Below are positions 36,512 through 48,385 of a DNA stretch of 64,000 nucleotides, one piece after another (the first letter of the stretch is position 1; each line of letters opens with the position of its first letter). The notes under the pieces are model-generated. The model saw nothing but the letters and a program-made list of their open reading frames with translations, was not told where the DNA came from and did no database searches. The translations under genes and the position numbers were made by a program. This stretch comes from Cellulomonas sp. PhB143 (GTDB lineage: Bacteria; Actinomycetota; Actinomycetes; Actinomycetales; Cellulomonadaceae): NCBI RefSeq assembly GCF_003752595.1, contig NZ_RKIJ01000012.1, positions 124,001-188,000 of the forward strand. Direction: 5' to 3'.

Positions 36512-37966
36512 TCAGACGCCCGCCGGCCGTGCCTGGCTCGGGTGCGGCCGGTCACCCACGCGCGCCTGCTCGCGCCACATCGCGCGCTCCAGCTCCGCCC
36601 GCACGTCCGCGTAGGCCGGGTCGTCGGAGACGTCGACGAGCTCGCGCGGGTCCTCGACCAGGTCGTACAGCTCCCACTCCGGCGGGTGTACGTGGGGGCT
36701 CGTGCCGGGGATGCCGAGCCCGTCGTTGTAGTAGTAGACGAGCTTGTGCGTCGCGGTCCGGTAGCCGTAGTGCGCGGGCGCGTGGTGGTCGACGTCGTCG
36801 TGCTCCCAGTAGCGGTAGTACATCCCCTCGGGCTCCGGGCCGTCGGGCCCGTGCCCGTCCCCGGGCCCGACGAGCCGCGGCCAGAAGCTGCGCCCCTGCA
36901 TCCGCGGGTGCGCCTCGACGCCGGCCGCCTCGAGCACCGTCCGCGCGACGTCGACGTTCGTGACGATGTCGCCGAGCACCGAGCCCGCCGGGACCCGCCC
37001 CGGGCAGCTGACGAGGAACGGCATGCGGATCGACTCCTCGAACATGAGCCGCTTGTCGAACCAGCCGTGGTCGCCGAGGAAGAAGCCCTGGTCGGAGGCG
37101 TACATCAGCAGGGTCTCGTCCGTGAGCCCGCGGTCGGCGAGCCAGCCCGCGATGCGCCCCACGCCGTCGTCCACGGACTCGACGCACGCGAGGTAGTCCT
37201 CCATGAACCGCCGGTACCTCCACGCCGCCTGCTCGGGCGCGCTCAGCCCGTCCGGCACGGGCCGCTTGAGGTCCGTGGCCGTCAGGTGCTCGGCGATGCT
37301 CATCTCCGCGCGCCGCACCGAGTCGCTGCGGCCCGCGTGGTCGTCGAAGAACGTCTCCGGGACGGGCAGGTCGGGCAGGGCGCGGACCTCGCGGCGCGGG
37401 TCCGGGACCCACGGCCGGTGCGGGGCCTTGTGCCACACCAGCACGCACCACGGGCCGCCGCCGTCGGCATCCACCGAGTCGAGCCACGCGAGCGCGAGGT
37501 CCGTGATGACCTCGGTGGCATAGCCGGTCTCGGTGCGCAGGCCCGCCGCCGACCGGAAGGTCGGGTCGAGGTACTCGCCCTGGTCGATCAGCACGTCCCA
37601 GTGGTCGAACCCCTCCGGGTCGTGCCCCGGCCCGTCGCCCATGTGCCACTTGCCGACGATCGCGGTCCGGTACCCCGCGGCACGCAGCTGTGAGACGAAC
37701 GTCGGCTGGCTCGCGTCGATGGGCGTCAGCAGCGTGGACACGCCGTTGACGTGGCTGTACGTGCCGGTGAGCAGCGACGCGCGGCTCGGCGCGCACAGCG
37801 AGTTGGTGGCGAAGCACCGGTCGAGCCGCGCCCCCGAGGCGGCGAGCGCGTCGAGGTGCGGCGTCCGCGCGACCGGCGACCCGTAGGCGCCGATCGCGTG
37901 GCTCGCGTGGTCGTCCGTGAGGACGAGCACGACGTTCGGCCGCCCGGCCGTGCCCGACGACGTCAC
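36512..37966 (-). CDS. type I sulfatase (arylsulfatase-like), last gene of the ROK operon
   Basis: A 484-residue alkaline-phosphatase-superfamily sulfatase without a visible signal peptide. Metal ligands include Asp18/Asp19 in VLTDDHASH. The modification motif CAPSRASLLTG puts Cys58 as the residue FGE converts to formylglycine. GKWHMGD, WHKAPHRPW and MYASDQGFFLGDHGWFDKRLMFEES carry the usual substrate and metal residues (Lys/His, Asp, His, Lys). The C-terminal WELYDLVEDPRELVDVSDDP is the standard sulfatase end. The GTG start overlaps the preceding sulfatase stop. The specificity is unknown; heparin/iduronate-type sulfatases look closest by eye. Confidence 0.92.
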   Translation of the reverse strand: MTSSGTAGRPNVVLVLTDDHASHAIGAYGSPVARTPHLDALAASGARLDRCFATNSLCAPSRASLLTGTYSHVNGVSTLLTPIDASQPTFVSQLRAAGYRTAIVGKWHMGDGPGHDPEGFDHWDVLIDQGEYLDPTFRSAAGLRTETGYATEVITDLALAWLDSVDADGGGPWCVLVWHKAPHRPWVPDPRREVRALPDLPVPETFFDDHAGRSDSVRRAEMSIAEHLTATDLKRPVPDGLSAPEQAAWRYRRFMEDYLACVESVDDGVGRIAGWLADRGLTDETLLMYASDQGFFLGDHGWFDKRLMFEESIRMPFLVSCPGRVPAGSVLGDIVTNVDVARTVLEAAGVEAHPRMQGRSFWPRLVGPGDGHGPDGPEPEGMYYRYWEHDDVDHHAPAHYGYRTATHKLVYYYNDGLGIPGTSPHVHPPEWELYDLVEDPRELVDVSDDPAYADVRAELERAMWREQARVGDRPHPSQARPAGV

Positions 37967-39519
37967 GCGCGACCGCCTCCCCCGCCCCGGGCCGCGGGCT
38001 CGCCGTGCGGGGAGGCCTCGTCCGCGCGGTACGTCGACTCGTCGAGACCGCTCATGGTCGGGTCGTAGGAGACCTCCCCGACGTCGTACATCGACGTCAT
38101 CCAGTGGAAGAACTTGTCCCCCCGGTCCCGCAGGCGCCGGTACAGCCGCCCCAGCATGTCCGAGCGGACCGGTGCCATCTCGGGGTGCCCGTAGACGTTC
38201 ATCAGCTCGTCGGGGTCGGTGAGCAGGTCGTAGAGCTCGTTGGTCGAGTCGGGGTTGACCACGAGCTTGTAGCGCGCGTCGCGGAGCATGCGCTGCGGGT
38301 AGGGGAAGTGGTGCCCGTGGAACTCGCAGACGATCTCCTGGTCCCACGGCACGTCCTCCCCCGAGACGAGCGGCACCAGGCTGCGCGAGTCGCAGGCGCC
38401 CGAGCGGTCCTCGACGCCCGCGAGCTCGAGGATCGTCGCCGTGCAGTCCATGAGGCTGACGAACTCGGTGCGCACCTGCCCGGCCGGGCCGCCGGGGATC
38501 CGCACGATCCCCGGCGTCCGGTAGATGTCCTCGTACATCGCCGGTCCCTTGTCGTGCAGCCGGTGCGAGCCCGTGAACTCCCCGTGGTCGCACGTGAAGA
38601 ACGTGGCCGTCTCGTCCGTCAGGCCGAGCCGGTCCATCGCCGCGAGCACCCGGGCGACCTGCTCGTCGATCAGCGTCACGTAGCCCCGGTAGACCGCGAT
38701 GAGCTTGCGCGTCACCTCGATCGGCATGGTGTCGAACGTCCAGTGGTCGCTGTAGTTCTTCTGCACCGGGGGCTTGCCCTGGAACGTCTCGGCGATCGAG
38801 CGCGGCAGCTCCACGGTCTCGGGGTCGACGAGGTCGAAGTAGGCGTCCGGCACCACGTACGGCAGGTGCGGACCGAAGAAGTTCAGCGCGAGGTAGAACG
38901 GCGTGCCGTCCGCCTCGCGCTGCGCCGCGTACCGCTCGAGCATCTCGATCGCGCGCGTGGCGAGGTAGTGCTCGAACGTCGCCTCGACCGGCTGGTGCAG
39001 GCGCGCCGCCAGCAGGTTTCCCGGCCCCCCGTTCGGCAGCGTGCCGCGGACCCGGTCGCTGATGGCGTACGGCGGCAGGTCCCGCTCCGCGAGGTAGGCG
39101 AGGTAGTCCTCGTGGTCGACGGGGTTGTGCCACCCGGGCAGGTGGACGCCGTCGAACCCGAAGTCGGCCGGCTCGCGCTCGGTGCCCGTGTGCCACTTGC
39201 CGACGAGCCCGCAGCTGTACCCGGCCTCGCGCAGCGCCTGGGAGAACGTGAACTGGTCCTGCGGGAGGTCCTCGATGTAGCCGACGTTGCGCTCGTTGTT
39301 GGCGAGCAGCTTGTGCCGGAACGGCGCCTGCCCGGTGAGCAGGCTCGCCCGGGCGGGCGTGCAGATGGCCGACGGCGTGTACCACCGGTCGAACCGGGTG
39401 CCCGACGCCGCGAGGGAGTCGATCGCCGGGGTGCTCGCCCGGTCGTTGCCGTAGGCGCCGAGGGTGTCGGCCCGGTGCTGGTCGGTCATGAGGAACAGGA
39501 TGTTGGGGCGGGACGTCAC
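37963..39519 (-). CDS. type I sulfatase, second copy
   Basis: The 518-residue sulfatase has Asp12 in FLMTDQHRADTLGAYGN and the modification motif CTPARASLLTG with Cys53; the Pro-to-Ala variant of the usual CxPSR (CTPAR) is still an accepted FGE substrate. GKWHTGTEREPADFGFDG, FFGPHLPYVVP, FFTCDHGEFTGSHRLHDKGPAMYEDIYR and CEFHGHHFPYPQRMLRDARYKLV carry the other active-site positions. It differs clearly from the neighbouring sulfatase, so the two probably remove sulfates at different positions. Both ends overlap neighbours as GTGA. No export signal is seen, suggesting an intracellular enzyme acting on imported substrate. Confidence 0.92.
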   Translation of the reverse strand: MTSRPNILFLMTDQHRADTLGAYGNDRASTPAIDSLAASGTRFDRWYTPSAICTPARASLLTGQAPFRHKLLANNERNVGYIEDLPQDQFTFSQALREAGYSCGLVGKWHTGTEREPADFGFDGVHLPGWHNPVDHEDYLAYLAERDLPPYAISDRVRGTLPNGGPGNLLAARLHQPVEATFEHYLATRAIEMLERYAAQREADGTPFYLALNFFGPHLPYVVPDAYFDLVDPETVELPRSIAETFQGKPPVQKNYSDHWTFDTMPIEVTRKLIAVYRGYVTLIDEQVARVLAAMDRLGLTDETATFFTCDHGEFTGSHRLHDKGPAMYEDIYRTPGIVRIPGGPAGQVRTEFVSLMDCTATILELAGVEDRSGACDSRSLVPLVSGEDVPWDQEIVCEFHGHHFPYPQRMLRDARYKLVVNPDSTNELYDLLTDPDELMNVYGHPEMAPVRSDMLGRLYRRLRDRGDKFFHWMTSMYDVGEVSYDPTMSGLDESTYRADEASPHGEPAARGGGGGRA

Positions 39520-40529
39520 TTCCCGGCCTCCGTGTACAGGTCGCCGGTGTAGAAGGTCGTCGGGTCCTTCTTCTCGGTGATCTTGCCGGCCTCCACGAAG
39601 TAGTCGTTCATCCCGTCGAGCCAGGTGCCGACCGTGCCGTCCTCGGTCAGGGAGTCCAGCTCCTGCGAGCTCATCGTCTTCGAGTTCGCCGCGTCCGCCT
39701 CGACGTCGGCCTCGTCCGCCTTGAGCATCTTCGCGGTGAGGGCGACCGTCTCCTCCGGGTGCTCGGCCCGGTAGTCCGTGGCCTCCTTGAGCGCCGCGAC
39801 GACGGCCTCGACCGTGTCCGGGTCGTCCTTGACGGTGTCGTTGCCGGCGACGAACGCCGTCGGGAACGAGACCGTGTCCGCGAAGTCCTCGTTCTTCGCG
39901 AGCTCGACGAGGTCGGGGACCTGCTTCTTGATGTTGCCCAGCATCGGGTACCAGAGGCCGGCGGCGTCGATCTGCCCGGAGCCGAACGCCGAGACGATCG
40001 TCGCGGGGTCCATGGGCACGAAGTCGACGTCGTCCTTCGTCAGGCCCACGGACTGCAGCGCGAGCGTGAGGATCATGTCGCCCGAGGTGCCCTCGGGGGC
40101 GGCGACCTTCTTGCCCTTGAGGTCGGCGAGCGAGGTGATGCCGGGCTGGGCGAAGACGCGGTCGGCGTTGCCGAGGGTGTTGATCGCGACGACCTGGGCC
40201 TTGCCGGAGGCCGGCAGCCACATCGCGCCGGGGCCGATGTAGCCGAAGTCGAGGTCGCCGGCGCCGAGCGCCTGGATCTGCGTCGGGCCGTCGGTGAACA
40301 CCGAGGTGTCCGCCGAGATCCCGTTCTCCTTCCAGTAGCCCTGGTCCTCGGCGACGGCGAGCAGGCTCGCGCCGTTGAAGTCGCCGATGTAGCCGAACTT
40401 CACGTCGGTGGTCGAGCCGCCGTCGGCGCCGTCGGACCCGGCGTCGTCGCCGCCGCTGCAGGCGGTGGCGAGGAGCCCGACGGAGGCGACGAGGGCGACG
40501 AGGCGGGCGGCGTTCCTGGTGCTGGACAT
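39516..40529 (-). CDS. ABC transporter substrate-binding lipoprotein (TauA/SsuA/NMT1 type)
   Basis: A lipoprotein signal with lipobox LLATAC (Cys near residue 24) precedes a 337-residue binding protein. VKFGYIGDFNGASLLAVAEDQGYWKENGI, FGYIGPGAMWL, ITSLADLKGKKVAAPEGTSGDMILTLAL and IDAAGLWYP are typical of the aliphatic-sulfonate, taurine and nitrate uptake family. In this operon the cargo is inferred to be a sulfate ester or sulfonated compound that the two sulfatases process. Its stop overlaps the start of the downstream sulfatase. Confidence 0.92.
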   Translation of the reverse strand: MSSTRNAARLVALVASVGLLATACSGGDDAGSDGADGGSTTDVKFGYIGDFNGASLLAVAEDQGYWKENGISADTSVFTDGPTQIQALGAGDLDFGYIGPGAMWLPASGKAQVVAINTLGNADRVFAQPGITSLADLKGKKVAAPEGTSGDMILTLALQSVGLTKDDVDFVPMDPATIVSAFGSGQIDAAGLWYPMLGNIKKQVPDLVELAKNEDFADTVSFPTAFVAGNDTVKDDPDTVEAVVAALKEATDYRAEHPEETVALTAKMLKADEADVEADAANSKTMSSQELDSLTEDGTVGTWLDGMNDYFVEAGKITEKKDPTTFYTGDLYTEAGK

Positions 40530-40545: not shown

Positions 40546-41376
40546 TCAGGCCGTCGTCGTCGACGGCTGGGCGAGCGAGGTGGACTGGTGGTAGACGGCG
40601 TGCCACACGCGGTTGCGCAGCTCGCCGAACTCCGGGCTGAGGCGCACGTCCTCGGTCCGGGGATAGGGCAGGTCGACGTCGACGACCTCCTGGATGCGGC
40701 CCGGGCGGGCGGCCATCACGACGACGCGGTTGGCGAGGAACACGGCCTCGTCGACGTCGTGCGTGATGAACACGACCGTGCGCCGGTCCTGGCTCCAGGT
40801 CTCGAGCAGCTGCTCCTGCAGGCGCACCCGGGTCAGCGCGTCGAGCGCGCCGAACGGCTCGTCCATGAGCAGGATCGAGGGGTCGACGGCGTAGGCGCGG
40901 GCGATCGCGCAGCGCTGCTTCATGCCGCCCGAGAGCGTCTTGGGCAGCGCGTCGGCGAACTGCTCGAGCCCGACGAGCCGGATGAAGTGGTCCGCCCGCT
41001 CGGCCCGCTCGCGCGCCGGCACCCCGGCGGTGCGCAGCCCGAACTCGACGTTCTTGCGCACCGTCAGCCACGGGAACAGCGCGTACTGCTGGAAGATCAC
41101 GCCGCGCTCGGGCCCCGGGCCGTCGACCTCGACGCCGTCCACGGTCGCGCGGCCGCCCGAGGGCTCCTCGAGCCCGGCGAGCACGTTCAGCAGCGTGCTC
41201 TTGCCGCAGCCGGAGGGGCCGACGACGGTGACGAACTCGTTCTCCGCGATGTCCAGGGACACGCGGTCGAGGGCGACGAACTCGCCGTCCTTGACGGGGA
41301 ACACCTTGCTCACCGCGTCGACGGAGATCTTCGGCGGGGCGCCCTCCGTGCTCGCGGTCGGCCGGTCCGGGGTCAT
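40546..41376 (-). CDS. ABC transporter ATPase (SsuB/TauB type)
   Basis: The 276-residue protein has all ABC motifs. Walker A is GPSGCGKST, the Q-loop [12 protein letters not shown], the signature LSGGMKQR, Walker [13 protein letters not shown], and the H-loop FITHDVDEA. It belongs to the nitrate/sulfonate/taurine branch, matching the permease and binding protein next to it. ATG 41376 overlaps the permease stop (ATGA). A 16-base gap separates it from the binding-protein gene, the only non-overlapping junction in the operon. Confidence 0.95.
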
Positions 41377-42176
41377 CGTCGTTCCTGCCACGAGGTCAGC
41401 TTCCGTTCTGCGAAGAGGAGGATCCGGTCCATCACGAGGCCGAGGATCCCGATGGTGATCAGGCCGACGAAGATCGTCGGGAGGTCGTAGTAGACCTGCG
41501 CGTTCTGCATGCGGAACCCCAGGCCCTGCTGGGCGGCGATCAGCTCGGCGGCGACGAGGGTCGCCCAGGACGAGCCGAGCCCGACCCGCATCCCGACGAG
41601 GATGAAGGGGGTCGAGGCGGGCACGACGACGCGCAGGAAGATGGTCCGGTCCCCCGCGCCGAGCACCCGGGCAGCGTTGATCAGGGTCCTGTCGACGTCG
41701 ACGACGCCCTGGAACGCCGAGATGACGCACACGAGGAACGCGGCGAGCGCGATGACGAAGATCTTCGGCGTCTCGCCGATGCCCATGAGCACGATGGCGA
41801 GCGGGATGATCGCGAGCGGAGGGATCGTGCGGAAGAACTGGATGTACGGCTCCGCGAGCCCGCGCACCGTCGAGTACCAGCCCATGAGGAACCCGACCGG
41901 GATCGCGAGCGCGGTGCCGATCGCGAACCCGGCGATCACGCGGGTGAGGCTCGCGAGGATGTCGCCCTCGAGGGTCCCGTCGGCGAGGAGCTCCCAGCCG
42001 CGCTCGGCGACCGCGGGCGGCGACGGGATGTTCTCGACCGTCGCGGACAGCAGCCACCACACGCCGATGCCGAAGAGCACCGAGACGATGTTCAGGACCA
42101 GCATCCGCCGGCCGCCCCCGGCGCCCTGGCGCCCGGACGCGGCCCGGCGGCGCGGGAGCACCGCGACGCCGGTCAC
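41373..42176 (-). CDS. ABC transporter permease (SsuC/TauC type)
   Basis: A 267-residue permease with about six helices. [38 protein letters not shown] is the family N-terminal block. The cytoplasmic coupling loop [45 protein letters not shown] is the EAA-type motif. [27 protein letters not shown] ends the domain. The start is GTG 42176, overlapping the ROK stop; the ROK gene is thus directly coupled to the transporter it presumably controls. Confidence 0.95.
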
Positions 42177-43438
42177 GCCCCCACCACCCAGGCCGACGTC
42201 GTCGCTGTCTGTCTCATGTGCAGCTCCTTCGCGTGCTGCCGCCCCGGGCCGGGACCGGCGAGATCGGTGTCGCCCGCGATCAGCGGGCTCTGGTGGTAGA
42301 GCACCTCGAGGGCGCCGAGCGCGCCGTCGTCGTCGTCGAGGACGGCGGCCCGCACGAGCACCGGCCGCCCGCACGAGGGCGCGAGGTCGGCGTCGATCTC
42401 CTCGCGGACGTGGTCGACGAACCGCGGCAGCTCGCGCGCGACCCGCCCGCCCACGACCACCTGGGCGGGGTCGAGGAGCTGGACCGCAGCGAGCAGGGTC
42501 GTGGCGACGTGGCCCGCGGCCGTGCGCACGATGCGCCCCGCCACGGGGTCCCCGGCGTCCGCGGCGCGGCCGAGGGCCGCCAGGTCGTCGACGACGAGGC
42601 CCGCGGCGCGCGCGGCGGCGAGGACGGCGGGCGCGGTCGCGACGGTCTCGAGGCACCCGCGGCGCCCGCACCGGCAGACCGCGCCGTCCGGGACGACGGT
42701 GACGTGCCCGAGCTCGCCGGCGGCGCCGCCCGAGCCGGGCACGAGCCTGCCGCCGACGACGACTCCCCCGCCGATGCCCTCGGAGAGCCGGACGTAGACG
42801 AGGTCCTTCGCCCTGCCGCGGCCCTCGACGGAGGCCTCGGCCAGCGCCGCGAACCGGGTGTTGTTGCCGACGATCACGGTGACCCCGCCGTACGCCTGCG
42901 AGATCCGGCGGTGCACGTGGCCGCGCACGTCCTGGCGCTCCTGGGCGCCCGGCCAGCGCGCGTTGCCCGGGCCGACGACGCCGACCGCGACGCTCTGCAG
43001 CGCGGCGAACCCCAGCCCCTGGTCCCGGCCGAGCTCGGCGACGAGCGCGACGACCCGGTCGAGCCGCTCGTCCCAGGTGGACGTCTCCGGATAGTCGAGG
43101 CCGGCGTCGCCGATGATCTCGTGCGCCGCGTCGGCGACGACGACGTGCGCCCGGCGGTGGCCGAGGTCGATCCCGACGTACTGGGCCGACCCCGGGTCGA
43201 GCGAGAGGCGCTCGGCGGGCCGCCCGCTCCCCCGGCGCGAGCCCGCGTCGGTCGCGGAGACGATGATCGCGCCCCGGGCGATCAGGTCGCCGACGATCTC
43301 CGAGAGGCTGCTGCGCGAGAGGCGCACGCGCTCGGCGAGCTCCGCCCGCGTGCACGCGCCGTGGGCCCGCAGCACCTTGAGCACGCGCGCCTGGTGCTGC
43401 TGGCGGACGGGCCCGTACACGTCGTCGTGCGGTGTCAT
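42173..43438 (-). CDS. ROK-family transcriptional regulator
   Basis: The 421-residue protein joins an N-terminal winged helix ([39 protein letters not shown], about 19-57) to a ROK sugar-kinase-like domain. [16 protein letters not shown] is the phosphate-1 region. [23 protein letters not shown] and the zinc motif [10 protein letters not shown] follow. The zinc motif and helix-turn-helix mark it as a regulator of the NagC/XylR/Mlc type that senses a sugar. It is the first gene of the operon and so is likely autoregulated. Two candidate operators lie in the 87-base gap upstream. ATG 43438 is preferred over GTG 43444. Confidence 0.93.
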
Positions 43439-43465
43439 GCGCACGATCCTGGGATGCCCGAATTA

Positions 43466-43487
43466 TTCCGTCAACAACCCGACAGAA
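43466..43487. promoter_or_regulatory. ROK operator candidate TTCCGTCA-N6-CGACAGAA
   Basis: This site, 28 bases before the ROK start codon, is an imperfect version (two mismatches in the right arm) of the perfect dyad TTCCGTCA-N6-TGACGGAA found upstream of the GH43 gene at 47205-47226. The shared left arm and spacing suggest binding by the same regulator. Confidence 0.6.
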
Positions 43488-43489
43488 CT

Positions 43490-43511
43490 ATCTTCCGGAC
43501 GTCCGGAAGAT
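43490..43511. promoter_or_regulatory. 22-bp perfect palindrome upstream of the ROK operon
   Basis: The core TCTTCCGGAC-GTCCGGAAGA (43491-43510) is flanked by a matching A/T pair, making 22 bases of perfect palindrome centred at 43500/43501. It lies 52 bases before the ROK start and 15 bases after the stop of the next gene. It may be a second operator or a rho-independent terminator without a loop. Confidence 0.6.
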
Positions 43512-43525
43512 TTCCTCCGGCGGCG

Positions 43526-43978
43526 CTACCGGCTGAGCCGTCCGAGGGACGCGCCGTAGACGAGGTGGGCGGTGAGCATCGTGGCGGCCCGGCGGCGGTC
43601 GTCCCGGTGCGCGGGCGGCAGGATGCCCAGCGCCGGGACCCACCCCTCGTAGCCGGCGGCCCAGAGGGCGATCCCGTACCCGGCACCGGTCAGGGCGTCG
43701 CGGCGGGACCGCGGCACGAGGGCCTGGTAGGCGAGGCCCGCGCCGACGCCGTACGCGACGTGGGAGAGCATCGTCGCCGCGTGCCCCGGGGTGCGGTCCC
43801 CGTGCGGGAGCAGATGGTCGGTGATCAGGCGCGGGGGCTGGCGCTCGAGCAGCCCGGCGGCCTGCGCCGCGAGCAGCCACGCGGTCATCGCGCCGGTCGC
43901 GGCGGCGCCGGCCGCGACCCGCTGCAGCTGCCGCTGAGCCGTCCGTCGTGCCGCCGCGCGTGCTCCGTGTCGTCGCAT
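43526..43978 (-). CDS. hypothetical membrane protein
   Basis: A 150-residue protein with an Arg-rich N-terminus and about three or four hydrophobic segments (VAAGAAATGAMTAWLLAAQAAGL, HAATMLSHVAYGVGAGLAYQAL, DALTGAGYGIALWAAGYEGW, AATMLTAHLVYGASLG). Repeated Ala-Thr-Met-Leu-x-His/Ala-His motifs suggest internal duplication. It resembles small actinobacterial membrane proteins of unknown function of the DUF1440/YagU kind. It lies between the glyoxalase gene and the ROK operator region. Nothing more can be said. Confidence 0.55.
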   Translation of the reverse strand: MRRHGARAAARRTAQRQLQRVAAGAAATGAMTAWLLAAQAAGLLERQPPRLITDHLLPHGDRTPGHAATMLSHVAYGVGAGLAYQALVPRSRRDALTGAGYGIALWAAGYEGWVPALGILPPAHRDDRRRAATMLTAHLVYGASLGRLSR

Positions 43979-44022
43979 CGGCTCATCGTCCGGCACCCGC
44001 TCGTCACTGGCCCGCCGGGCCG

Positions 44023-44355
44023 TCAGGACCCGGTGAGGACCACGCGGTTGCCGTCGGGGTCGCTGAGCTGCAGGATGCGTGCCCCGCCGCCCGGCTGGGG
44101 ACCGTCGTGCTCGATGCCGGCGTCGGCGGCCCGGGCGGCAGCGGCGTCGAGGTCGGTCTCGTCGAGCACCACCGTCGACCGCCCGGCGCGGTCGGGCTCG
44201 GACCACACCTGCAGGCCGAAGCTGTCGCCGAGGTGCCACTCGACCAGGCCGGGCATGGGGCGGGCGTCGGGGCCGCGCTCGAACAGCGCCGTGTACCAGC
44301 GCTCGGCACGGTCGAGATCGGTGACGGTGCAGTGGGCGAGCATGCGGTGGATCAT
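44023..44355 (-). CDS. VOC/glyoxalase family protein
   Basis: A single 110-residue vicinal-oxygen-chelate domain. HRMLAHCTVTDLDRAERWYTALFERGPD is the first beta-alpha-beta unit and GGGARILQLSDPDGNRVVLTG the second. Members include glyoxalase I, fosfomycin-resistance and bleomycin-binding proteins; the pattern here is closest to uncharacterised small VOC proteins. Metal ligands are not obvious beyond His near the N-terminus. It is probably an independent gene between GH43 and the small membrane protein. Confidence 0.85.
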   Translation of the reverse strand: MIHRMLAHCTVTDLDRAERWYTALFERGPDARPMPGLVEWHLGDSFGLQVWSEPDRAGRSTVVLDETDLDAAAARAADAGIEHDGPQPGGGARILQLSDPDGNRVVLTGS

Positions 44356-44446
44356 GGCGGGCTCCTTCGCCGGTGGTGATGTGCCACCACCTCAGCACGC
44401 CCGGGGCCGGGCGGCACGCTCGCCGCCCGGCCCCGGACGCTCACGC

Positions 44447-47065
44447 TCAGGTGCAGCTGACCGCGTCGTACGCCGCGACCACCGGCTGCGGCTCCCCGCC
44501 CTGGCGCGTCACCGTCACCGTGGCCTCGCCCGCCGGCACCGTGCCCTTGCGCACCGCGAACGACTGGTACGCGCTGCGCCCGGGCGCCACCTGCGCGACG
44601 GGCTTGGACCCGAACGGCGTCGCGATCGCGACCCCCGCCGGCGCGTCGCCCGTGTTCAGCGCCCGCACCGCGAGCACCGCGCTCGACCCCACGCACCGCG
44701 CCTGGGCGGTCACCTCCACCTGCGGGTCCGGCACCGGGTCGGCGACCGCGTAGGTGTGCACGTAGTCGAACCTCGCGGTCGCGCCCGCCGTGTTCATCGA
44801 GACCAGGCCGATCTGCACGGGCTGGCCGTCGGGCCACGTCCAGGTGCCGCCCCACGTCCACGTCGACCCGTCCGTGCTCGTGGCCATGCGGGCCTCGTGC
44901 TCCCCGTTCTCGACGTCGTGGTGGTACTTCAGGCGCATCCACATCGTGTCCGCCGGGGCCGGGCCGAACATCGGCCCGGAGAAGACGGCCGTCGCGGGGA
45001 CCGTCGTCGGGCGGGGTGCCTCCTTGGTGAACTCCGTGACCTGCGCGGACCTGTTGATCCGGCTCAGCGGGAGCACGGAGTGCACCAGCTTCACGAAGCT
45101 GTCGTCGTTCGCGTACAGCAGCAGGCCCGCCTGACGGTTGGCGCTCTGCGCGGGCAGGTCGAGCTTCGTCTCGACGACGAAGTCGCCCTCCGGCGCGTCG
45201 CGCAGCAGCACCGAGGCGCTGTTGTCGGTGCGGTAGAGCTCGGCCCCCTGCGTCGGCCACGACAGCCGCCCGCCCGTGAGGGTCGCCTGGGACGCACCGC
45301 CGCGCACCCAGCGCCACGCGGGGTCACCCGTCTCGGGACGGCCCGAGCCGTCGAAGTCGTCCGAGTATGCGGGCAGCAGCTCACCCACCCGGGGGTCCGG
45401 GACGCGCTCGGTCACCGGCGTGGACAGCGCGGCCGCGCCGAGGTTGTCCACGTCCGCCGCGCCCGTCGACGACGCGACGACGGCCGCGCCGTCGACCGCC
45501 CCGGCGGACGACGTCGTCACGGTCGCCAGCGGCTCCCCCGCCGCGTCCTCGGCGAGCGAGGCCGTGACCTCGCCGCCGCGGACCTCGACGCTCAGCGTCG
45601 CCCACGTCGCCGAGAAGCCCGCGGGCAGCGGCGCCCTGGCGGCACCGCCGGAGCCCTGTACGACGAGCTCGCCGGTGGCGGCGTCGAGAGACGCGGTGAC
45701 GTCGGCGCCCGTGCCGGAGCCGTCGAGCCCGATGCTCACGCTGCCGGCGTCGGCCAGCCGAACGTCGCCCTGCACCCGCACGTCGCCGTCCACGGTGGCC
45801 CGGCTGCGCACGGTGCCGCCGTCGAGCGCGACGTACCCGCCGGCGTCGGCCTCCGTGGCGGGCGAGGCGTCCGTGGCGTCCCAGCCGGTGAGGTCGTCGA
45901 AGGTCGAGCCCACGTCCCAGGTCGTGACCGGGGCCTGCTGCGGCCCGGCGGACGCCCCGGCGCCCGCGTTCACCACGGGCCAGCCGTCGATCCAGTCGAG
46001 CCGGTCGATCATCAGCGGCCGCTTCGAGAGGTTGCCGGGCGCGCCGGGGACGAGGCCGAAGTTCGGGTCCTTCTCGTCGATGGCGTGGTAGACCATCCAG
46101 TCCTGGCCGGCGAGGTCCGTCTGGACGGCGTTGTGGCCGGGCCCGACGAAGCCGTTGCCGTTCCCCGCGAGCACGATCCCGCCCTTGCTGGAGGAGGCCA
46201 TGAGGTCGACCCCGTCCGGGTCGACGAACGGGCCGAGCGGGCTGGTGGAGCGGCCCGCCTTGACGGTGTAGCCGCTGAACTCGCCGTCGCAGCAGCCCGC
46301 GTCGGAGTACAGCAGGTAGTAGTGGTCGCCGTGGCGGACGACGAACGAGCCCTCCGCGCGGCGGCCCGCCGCGATCTGGGTCACGGGGCCGGTGAGCGCC
46401 GTCGCGTCCGCGGTCATCGCGGAGACGCACAGCACGTCGTAGCTGCCCCAGTACAGGTAGCGCGTGCCGTCGTCGTCGGTGAACATCGCCTGGTCGATGG
46501 TCCCGGACGGACAGCCGCCGTCGGAGCCGTGCGCGACCACCGCGCCCCGGTCCGTCCACGGGCCTGTCGGCGTCGGCGCCGTCGACAGCCCGATCCCGCC
46601 GTTCGAGAGCCCGTACGTCAGGTGGTAGCTGCCGTCCACGTAACGGATGTCCGGCGCCCAGATCCGCGAGTCGCCGGGCCACCACCCGGGCCGGGCGCCC
46701 TGCGGGAACACGTCGCCGGCGTACTGCCAGTGCGCCATGTCGTCCGAGACGAGGACGGGCACGATGCGCTCGCCGGCCTCGCCCGCGCTGTCGAAGACGG
46801 GGTTCTGGGTGCCGTAGGCGTAGTAGCGCCCGTCCTTGCCGCGGATCATCGACGGGTCCGGGAAGGTGTCGACGACGCCCGCGCTCACCGGGTTCTCGTA
46901 CGTCCCGGCCGGCGCGTCGGCAGCAGCGACGGCCGCGGTGACGGCCGGCGTGACTGCCGGCGCTGACGGGAGCGGAGCCCCCTCGGCGATCCCGACGGCC
47001 GGGACGGCGAGCGCCCCCGCCGCGAGCACGGCCGCGGCCGCCTGAACCACTCGTCTTCTTCGCAT
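44447..47065 (-). CDS. secreted glycoside hydrolase family 43 protein
   Basis: The 872-residue protein starts with a signal peptide ending near residue 30 and a GH43 five-bladed propeller (about 54-390). Asp70 in DTFPDPSMIR is the likely base, Asp191 in TIDQAMFTDDDG the pKa modulator and Glu238 in AEGSFVV the acid. GH43 enzymes cleave arabinose, xylose or galactose linkages. Beta-sandwich regions follow (about 400-840), with a concanavalin-like or CBM66-type domain WRWVRGGASQATLTGGRLSWPT and a DUF1349-like end. A final segment with VRALNTGDAPAGVAIATPFG resembles an Ig-like domain. ATG 47065 follows GAAGGAGAAG. Confidence 0.88.
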   Translation of the reverse strand: MRRRRVVQAAAAVLAAGALAVPAVGIAEGAPLPSAPAVTPAVTAAVAAADAPAGTYENPVSAGVVDTFPDPSMIRGKDGRYYAYGTQNPVFDSAGEAGERIVPVLVSDDMAHWQYAGDVFPQGARPGWWPGDSRIWAPDIRYVDGSYHLTYGLSNGGIGLSTAPTPTGPWTDRGAVVAHGSDGGCPSGTIDQAMFTDDDGTRYLYWGSYDVLCVSAMTADATALTGPVTQIAAGRRAEGSFVVRHGDHYYLLYSDAGCCDGEFSGYTVKAGRSTSPLGPFVDPDGVDLMASSSKGGIVLAGNGNGFVGPGHNAVQTDLAGQDWMVYHAIDEKDPNFGLVPGAPGNLSKRPLMIDRLDWIDGWPVVNAGAGASAGPQQAPVTTWDVGSTFDDLTGWDATDASPATEADAGGYVALDGGTVRSRATVDGDVRVQGDVRLADAGSVSIGLDGSGTGADVTASLDAATGELVVQGSGGAARAPLPAGFSATWATLSVEVRGGEVTASLAEDAAGEPLATVTTSSAGAVDGAAVVASSTGAADVDNLGAAALSTPVTERVPDPRVGELLPAYSDDFDGSGRPETGDPAWRWVRGGASQATLTGGRLSWPTQGAELYRTDNSASVLLRDAPEGDFVVETKLDLPAQSANRQAGLLLYANDDSFVKLVHSVLPLSRINRSAQVTEFTKEAPRPTTVPATAVFSGPMFGPAPADTMWMRLKYHHDVENGEHEARMATSTDGSTWTWGGTWTWPDGQPVQIGLVSMNTAGATARFDYVHTYAVADPVPDPQVEVTAQARCVGSSAVLAVRALNTGDAPAGVAIATPFGSKPVAQVAPGRSAYQSFAVRKGTVPAGEATVTVTRQGGEPQPVVAAYDAVSCT

Positions 47066-47204
47066 CGGTGCTTCTCCTTCGAAGCGTGCCCTGCCGGGGC
47101 CGTCGGTGGCCGTCGGCAGGAAGCGGTGCCTGGTCGTGCGCAGCATGTCGGCCTGACAGCGCTGTCCAGGGCCTGGTGATCCTGACCGTAGGGGAGGCCG
47201 ATTT

Positions 47205-47226
47205 TTCCGTCAATGATCTGACGGAA
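47205..47226. promoter_or_regulatory. ROK operator candidate TTCCGTCA-N6-TGACGGAA
   Basis: A perfect 8+8 inverted repeat lies in the 390-base gap between the GH43 gene and the aldo/keto reductase gene, 140 bases upstream of the GH43 start. It is the best copy of the motif also seen before the ROK gene, so the ROK protein probably controls GH43 too. Confidence 0.65.
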
Positions 47227-47455: not shown

Positions 47456-48385
47456 GTGAAGACCTTCACCCTGCCCGGAACCGAGATCACCGCCCCGAAC
47501 GTCGTGCTCGGCCTCATGCGCATCGCCGACAAGTCCGACGACGAGGTCCGTGAGCTCGCCCGGACCGCGCGGGACGCGGGGATCGACTTCGTCGACCACG
47601 CGGACATCTACGGCGGCTCGATGCACGCCTGCGAGCGCCGCTGGGCCGAGGCGATGCAGCTGTCCAGCGCCGAGCGCGAGACGTGGACGATCCAGACGAA
47701 GTGCGGGATCGTCCCGCCCGACGGCTTCGACTTCTCCTACGAGCACATCGTCGAGTCCGTCGAGGGCTCGCTCGAGGCGCTGCGCACCGAGTACCTCGAC
47801 CTGCTGCTGCTGCACCGCCCCGACGCGCTCGTCGAGCCCGAGGAGGTCGCCCGCGCGTTCGACGCGCTCGAGGCCTCCGGCAAGGTCCGCTCCTTCGGCG
47901 TCTCGAACCACACCCCCGGCCAGATCGACCTGCTGAAGAAGTTCGTCGAGCAGCCGCTCGTCGCCAACCAGCTGCAGCTGTCGATCACGCACTCGCCGAT
48001 CGTCGCGCAGGGCGTCTCCGCGAACATGCTCGGCGAGGACCAGTCGATCGACCGCGACCGCGGCATCCTCGACTACTGCCGCCTGAACGACATCACCGTC
48101 CAGGCGTGGTCGCCGTTCCAGGCAGGCTTCTTCGACGGCGTGTTCCTCGGGTCCGACAAGCACCCCGAGCTCAACGCCGTGATCGACCGGCTCGCCGCGA
48201 AGTACGACGTCCCCTCGATGGCGATCGCGACCGCGTGGATCACCCGTCACCCGGCGCGGATGCAGGTCGTCCTCGGGACGACGACGCCGGAGCGCGTGAC
48301 GGCCGCCGCGCAGGGCTCCGAGGTCCCCCTGACGCGCGCCGAGTGGTACGAGCTGTTCCGCGCCGGCGGGCACATCGTGCCCTGA
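47456..48385 (+). CDS. aldo/keto reductase (YdhF-like)
   Basis: The 309-residue enzyme carries the complete AKR tetrad. GIDFVDHADIYGG carries Asp and Tyr, TIQTKCGI carries Lys, and YLDLLLLHRPD carries His. VRSFGVSNHTPGQIDLLKKFVEQPLVANQLQLSITH and QVVLGTTTPERV match the YdhF/oxidoreductase subgroup. Note DHADIYGGSMHACERRWAEAM, a YdhF feature. The start chosen is GTG 47456 after GAGAGGAC. It is divergent from the GH43 gene and shares the repeat-containing promoter region, so a role in the same sugar pathway is possible but unproven. Confidence 0.92.
   Translation: MKTFTLPGTEITAPNVVLGLMRIADKSDDEVRELARTARDAGIDFVDHADIYGGSMHACERRWAEAMQLSSAERETWTIQTKCGIVPPDGFDFSYEHIVESVEGSLEALRTEYLDLLLLHRPDALVEPEEVARAFDALEASGKVRSFGVSNHTPGQIDLLKKFVEQPLVANQLQLSITHSPIVAQGVSANMLGEDQSIDRDRGILDYCRLNDITVQAWSPFQAGFFDGVFLGSDKHPELNAVIDRLAAKYDVPSMAIATAWITRHPARMQVVLGTTTPERVTAAAQGSEVPLTRAEWYELFRAGGHIVP

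Follow-up and report, generated by a model that had tools for sequence, protein, structure and literature searches.

Two promoters 3.7 kb apart in Cellulomonas sp. PhB143 carry versions of the same dyad-symmetric element. One drives a gene for a ROK-family regulator, followed by genes for an ABC permease, an ATPase, an SsuA-family binding protein and then two sulfatases; the other drives a GH43 glycosidase gene. Both lie in the 64,000 nucleotides (nt) analyzed here (contig NZ_RKIJ01000012.1, positions 124,001 to 188,000; hereafter the window). Why should these two units share an element? Based on sequence comparisons, we consider it highly probable that both dyads are operators of the ROK protein encoded at 42173-43438, which would co-repress the operon and GH43 until a sugar arrives. 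The shared element would probably allow one sugar-sensing regulator to switch on a secreted hydrolase and an import-and-desulfation operon together.

The initial annotation described a perfect dyad upstream of GH43 and a copy with two mismatches 28 bases before the ROK start. Both are present as described, with the ROK ATG at 43438 and the near edge of its dyad at 43466. A scan of the host genome (3,207,383 bases in 17 contigs), suggested at the same time, finds three places at ≤3 mismatches, two of which are the window sites; the reversed pattern gives 0 matches at this threshold. Matches at ≤3 mismatches in the window number exactly two, where dinucleotide shuffles predict 0.16, and two were reached in 0/100 shuffles. 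The third genomic place (G000:C2:18278), TGCCGTCA-N6-TGACGGCA, was rejected as a regulon member, since it sits within a longer hairpin between two convergent open reading frames (ORFs) and is probably a terminator. The perfect form, TTCCGTCA, is confined to the GH43 site of this genome, and the GH43 site of one same-genus relative is nearly perfect. Taken over the orthologues, the element has imperfect dyad symmetry and reads TTCYGYCRGGNNNTTGACGGAA on the strand encoding ROK and GH43.

At a threshold of E ≤ 1e-60, ROK orthologues occur in 11/221 genomes of the family (12 copies) and 12/396 genomes of the order, 9 of the latter outside the host's own family and spread over five others. Relatives beyond this orthologue group are 29–39% identical among the matches listed. 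Counting G196, whose ROK matches in two frames, the total comes to 22 loci; the Actinotalea entries L005, G101 and G112 represent a single contig and enter this total once, and loci L006-L009 (34–36% ROK relatives) lie outside the site analysis. The consensus TTCYGYCRGGNNNTTGACGGAA is found with ≤2 mismatches before ROK in 19 of these 22 loci; the remaining three have 4 (G024), 5 (G060) and 4 (G565). Because the consensus was drawn from the first loci, their counts are partly circular; among the 13 distinct loci fetched after it was fixed, 12 have ≤2 mismatches before ROK. Upstream regions of 23 ROK paralogues, scanned like the first GH43 control set below on one strand over 430–530 nt, all show ≥6 mismatches, and G044, a same-genus genome lacking this ROK, has no place at ≤2 mismatches. 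An alignment of 21 ROK sites shows conservation in the two arms but not in the upstream flank; within the left (upstream) arm, which lies outside the promoter, five positions are the same in 21/21. The gene context is kept as well, with sulfA or sulfB adjoining ROK or following its transporter genes in 21/22 loci (the 22nd, in G565, ends at a contig edge). In G196 (L191), ROK, GH43 and sulfB each match as two stretches, and these genes are therefore broken or misassembled there.

The GH43 side of the proposed regulon behaves similarly. GH43 genes of the window's subfamily (type 1) precede ROK in G068, G072, G076, G086, G216, G217 and G196, and also, at 36% identity, in G448 and G493. The site stands before 11/11 close or syntenic type-1 genes, with 0–3 mismatches, and before 0/28 other GH43 homologues. 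These valid controls form two sets. In the first, for which 22 of 30 loci were used (L092-L098 and L101 were omitted for a partial protein match or absence of the N-terminal part), 17/17 have ≥6 mismatches. In the second, searched on both strands over 620 nt upstream and without L183 (108 nt upstream only), one of 11 has 4 mismatches and ten have ≥6 (L180, for example, has 7); several listed homologues without loci fall outside this count. At ≥57% identity, type-1 GH43 is present in 7/11 ROK genomes versus 2/210 others in the family (Fisher 2.5e-9, uncorrected for kinship). The two exceptions, G196 and G212, do hold the operon, G212 without detected ROK and with its type-1 GH43 in pieces.

Across many genomes, then, the element lies over the ROK -35 box and upstream of GH43, and its occurrence follows that of this group of ROK orthologues. 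Whether the dyad is conserved upstream of both sets of orthologous genes was the check that the initial annotation had called for, and its proposal of one shared regulon is well supported by the outcome. When each place is counted once in 21 genomes, 31/34 places at ≤2 mismatches sit at promoters of the proposed regulon (hand count). At ≤3 mismatches the true pattern gives 90 hits versus 18 for the reversed one, the 90 still including double-counted palindromes and a duplicate genome. Matches at ≤2 mismatches in G216, G217 and G292 that fall inside long ORFs were rejected as regulon members.

Other genes also stand behind the operator. A second GH43 subfamily (type 2; three members share 60–71% identity, and identity to the window GH43 is about 25%) has the site in 3/13 cases (G060, G405 and G545), and in G199 a type-2 gene follows sulfB on the same strand. 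Type 2 is found in 8/11 ROK genomes versus 2/210 others in the family (Fisher 5.8e-11, uncorrected for kinship). In G060, of the same genus as the host, a type-2 gene with a near-perfect dyad lies 583 kb from the ROK operon and adjoins an orthologue (89%) of the window aldo/keto reductase; G024 and G044 have no such orthologue at E 1e-60. The GH43 genes behind the dyad in the window and in G060 belong to different subfamilies, and the clearest conserved non-coding block between the two intergenic regions consists of both arms of the dyad together with AAAAT, the spacer having changed. A GH20 gene with a 3-mismatch site occupies the GH43 place in G569, which has sulfB and is the one complete locus without sulfA. 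GH20 is also the family of BbhII. Finally, the second copy of G199 (1 mismatch), G565 (1) and G292 (2) each have a divergent site at a sugar-type MFS gene; there are no ABC genes of this kind within the stretch read for the G199 second copy and G292, and the G565 locus stops where its contig ends.

Several side observations concern these neighbors. Type 2 is fused behind type-1 GH43 in G068 (L041) and G072 (L044), as single ORFs of 1276 and 1184 codons. Type-2 genes in six genomes of one genus (L163-L166, L168 and L169) have a different promoter element in common, similar to TTCTGTCGCGTCTTGAGCG and accompanied by the -10 box TTAGCGT; it does not fit the consensus and was not counted. In L117, L126 and L127, a gene for a D-arabinono-lactone-oxidase-like flavin adenine dinucleotide (FAD) enzyme comes after the MFS gene that has the divergent site; the enzyme perhaps acts on the released sugar. 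ROK loci L122, L124 and L129 hold a homologue of a 542-residue protein that bears an alpha-L-arabinofuranosidase C-terminal domain; this hints at a substrate of the arabinose type.

How might the element act? Its promoter-proximal (right) arm includes the -35 box, an arrangement that implies repression, as has been argued for NagR. With the -10 box taken as the best TANNNT-like hexamer at a spacer of 16–18, the start codon lies 6–7 nt past the -10 in 22/22 ROK loci (20 ATG; 2 GTG, in the G199 second copy and G569); four of these -10 boxes deviate from TANNNT, that of the window among them. This short distance predicts a leaderless mRNA, and the layout suggests that the ROK gene represses itself. 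The protein matches the ROK family at 155.8 bits and a MarR-type helix-turn-helix at 32.1 bits, both above cut-off. Its ExGH and CxCGxxGCxE sugar and zinc motifs are invariant in 21/21 orthologues, and at the position that we take to be the kinase catalytic Asp all 21 have Asn, as expected for a sugar-sensing non-kinase. Without inducer, ROK would cover the -35 boxes, silencing GH43 and its own operon, with the SsuABC-like importer and two sulfatases. Basal GH43 would free a (sulfated) sugar outside the cell, and the ABC transporter would take it in. The sugar or its desulfated form would occupy the ROK sugar pocket and free the DNA, so that hydrolase, importer and cytoplasmic sulfatases would be induced jointly.

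That GH43 releases a product which the operon imports and desulfates, as initially proposed, would fit the gene content and the swaps: the GH43 N-terminus is signal-like, the ABC importer has an SsuA-family binding protein, the sulfatases (both with C-x-P-x-R motifs) have no signal peptide visible by eye, and GH20 replaces GH43 in one locus. The best solved match of sulfB is N-acetylglucosamine-6-sulfatase 5g2v (351 bits) and that of sulfA an exo-2S-iota-carrageenan sulfatase (159 bits), and the nearest solved relatives of the window GH43 are arabinanases (about 80 bits); these matches leave the substrate unfixed. A solved-structure search with type-2 GH43 returned no match.

Several observations weigh against co-repression of the operon and GH43 by ROK. 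GH43 and ROK are separated by two unrelated genes in the window. Both same-genus relatives have a degenerate site before ROK (4 and 5 mismatches), seven of the 13 type-2 GH43 genes lack a site at <6 mismatches, and in G024 neither type of GH43 is found at the thresholds applied. In addition, G086:C21, a paralogue 36% identical to ROK and not among the 23 above, is preceded by a 3-mismatch site, which was left out of the regulon counts; this ROK may not be the only regulator to use the site. The G086 site, together with the 11 ROK-type matches in the host, would suit a different arrangement, in which another regulator, such as a ROK paralogue, binds the element and the ROK gene is just a target. 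We regard this as quite improbable, given that the element tracks the orthologue group, being absent both upstream of the 23 tested paralogues (≥6 mismatches) and, at ≤2 mismatches, from G044. Still harder to credit is the notion that the shared arm is merely a -35 box and the second arm chance. The right arm does hold TTGACG at -35 spacing, but the invariant upstream-arm positions contradict this explanation, which was rejected, and the element is near-unique in each genome.

A less remote, though still unlikely, alternative is that the regulon exists but provides for sulfur scavenging, with an SsuR/CysR-like ROK that responds to sulfate or to O-acetylated amino acids, and with sulfatases that yield sulfate rather than sugar. 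The SsuA-family binding protein would suit such a role, and ROK-type regulators of sulfur genes do exist: SsuR and CysR of Corynebacterium glutamicum, whose genes are leaderless too (PMC2580772). They are, however, activators that respond to sulfur effectors and bind TGAAtnnAAt repeats upstream of the -35, whereas the window element is a different motif lying over the -35. With no such inverted repeat at that place, membership in the SsuR/CysR group was rejected. Moreover, the genes co-regulated here are glycosidases and sugar-type transporters, and the sugar and zinc motifs of this ROK are intact, whereas the ROK match of CysR is weak.

Co-repression by a sugar-responsive ROK protein has better parallels elsewhere. 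The closest precedent, by analogy, is AtsR2 of Bifidobacterium breve UCC2003, described as a ROK repressor of a sulfated-sugar cluster that includes atsB and genes for a sugar transporter and a sulfatase, with N-acetylglucosamine-6-sulfate (GlcNAc-6S) as effector (PMC6045583; AtsR2 also PMC9599254). Here too the ROK gene adjoins sulfatase genes; unlike the AtsR2 cluster, the present system has an SsuABC-like importer, GH43 and two sulfatases, and no AtsB-type maturase was noticed in the window operon. The likeness of sulfB to GlcNAc-6-sulfatase is only a hint toward the AtsR2 effector. NagR of Bifidobacterium longum subsp. infantis is a ROK repressor with palindromic operators, 10/11 of them over the -10 or -35 (PMC9599254), and its regulon likewise joins transporters and glycosidases; unlike the window regulon, it serves catabolism of GlcNAc and human milk oligosaccharides, with no sulfatases in the described parts. 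RokB of Streptomyces coelicolor, likewise an actinobacterial ROK regulator, recognizes the inverted repeat TTTGTTC-N11-GAACAAA at novH and has a regulon tied to amino-acid metabolism (PMC4856308); its half-site differs from the window dyad. The traits of NagC/Mlc-type ROK proteins found here are the ROK domain, the N-terminal winged helix, both motifs and the non-kinase character, along with a dyad placed over promoters; binding and sugar release are predicted.

More tentatively, though we think it quite possible, an SsuABC-like importer has been recruited for sulfated monosaccharides, with cytoplasmic desulfation, timing by ROK and a modular design across an actinobacterial order. Secreted GH43 or GH20 enzymes would supply sulfated monosaccharides to this recruited sulfonate-family importer, and the ROK repressor, sensing the sulfated or freshly desulfated sugar, would time each step. 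Retention of the operator when ABC gives way to MFS, or one GH43 subfamily to the other or to GH20, would make this one modular scheme. The proposal would provide a testable, defined regulon for sulfated-glycan use in Actinobacteria, with genes named for joint assay, suggest a substrate class for the SsuABC-like importer and two GH43 subfamilies, and show an operator retained while the hydrolase behind it is swapped. The operator is short and conserved, which makes gel shifts and effector screens straightforward. No description of this regulon was found in titles and abstracts of the open-access literature searched. Table 1 lists the features of the window.

Table 1. Genes, predicted promoter boxes and operators around the two dyads (window positions).
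Feature	Position	Strand	Remarks
Sulfatase B (sulfB)	36512..37966	-	CAPSR motif; closest solved relative N-acetylglucosamine-6-sulfatase
Sulfatase A (sulfA)	37963..39519	-	CTPAR motif; no visible signal peptide
Solute-binding protein, SsuA family	39516..40529	-	238 bits vs cut-off 163.5
ABC ATPase	40546..41376	-	
ABC permease, SsuC/TauC-like	41373..42104	-	No NCBIfam cut-off reached
ROK regulator	42173..43438	-	Winged helix-turn-helix and ROK domain; ExGH and CxCGxxGCxE motifs
-10 box of ROK, CAGGAT (predicted)	43446..43451	-	Spacer 17; 7 nt before ATG; deviates from TANNNT at first base
-35 box of ROK, TTGACG (predicted)	43469..43474	-	Within operator right arm; consensus reading
ROK-promoter operator (predicted)	43466..43487	-	TTCTGTCGGGTTGTTGACGGAA on minus strand; kept before orthologous ROK genes
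22-bp perfect palindrome	43490..43511	.	ATCTTCCGGACGTCCGGAAGAT; adjoins ROK operator on its upstream side
GH43	44447..47065	-	Signal-like N-terminus (by eye); GH43_C2-type domain
-10 box of GH43, TACGGT (predicted)	47185..47190	-	Spacer 17; read by eye
-35 box of GH43, TTGACG (predicted)	47208..47213	-	Read by eye
GH43-promoter operator (predicted)	47205..47226	-	TTCCGTCAGATCATTGACGGAA on minus strand
Aldo/keto reductase	47456..48385	+	Divergent from GH43; also neighbors GH43 and same dyad in G060

Upstream of the ROK operator, at 33 nt, a second, weaker dyad stands out (z 5.2 over all offsets), scoring ≥8/10 in 6/22 loci, with L041, L042, L043 and L045 as examples. Its distance from the operator is constant, at three turns, and it may serve a ROK tetramer as an auxiliary operator. 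In lieu of the weaker dyad, the window has the palindrome ATCTTCCGGACGTCCGGAAGAT; it was not seen at other ROK loci and is single-copy in the genome (within 3 mismatches).

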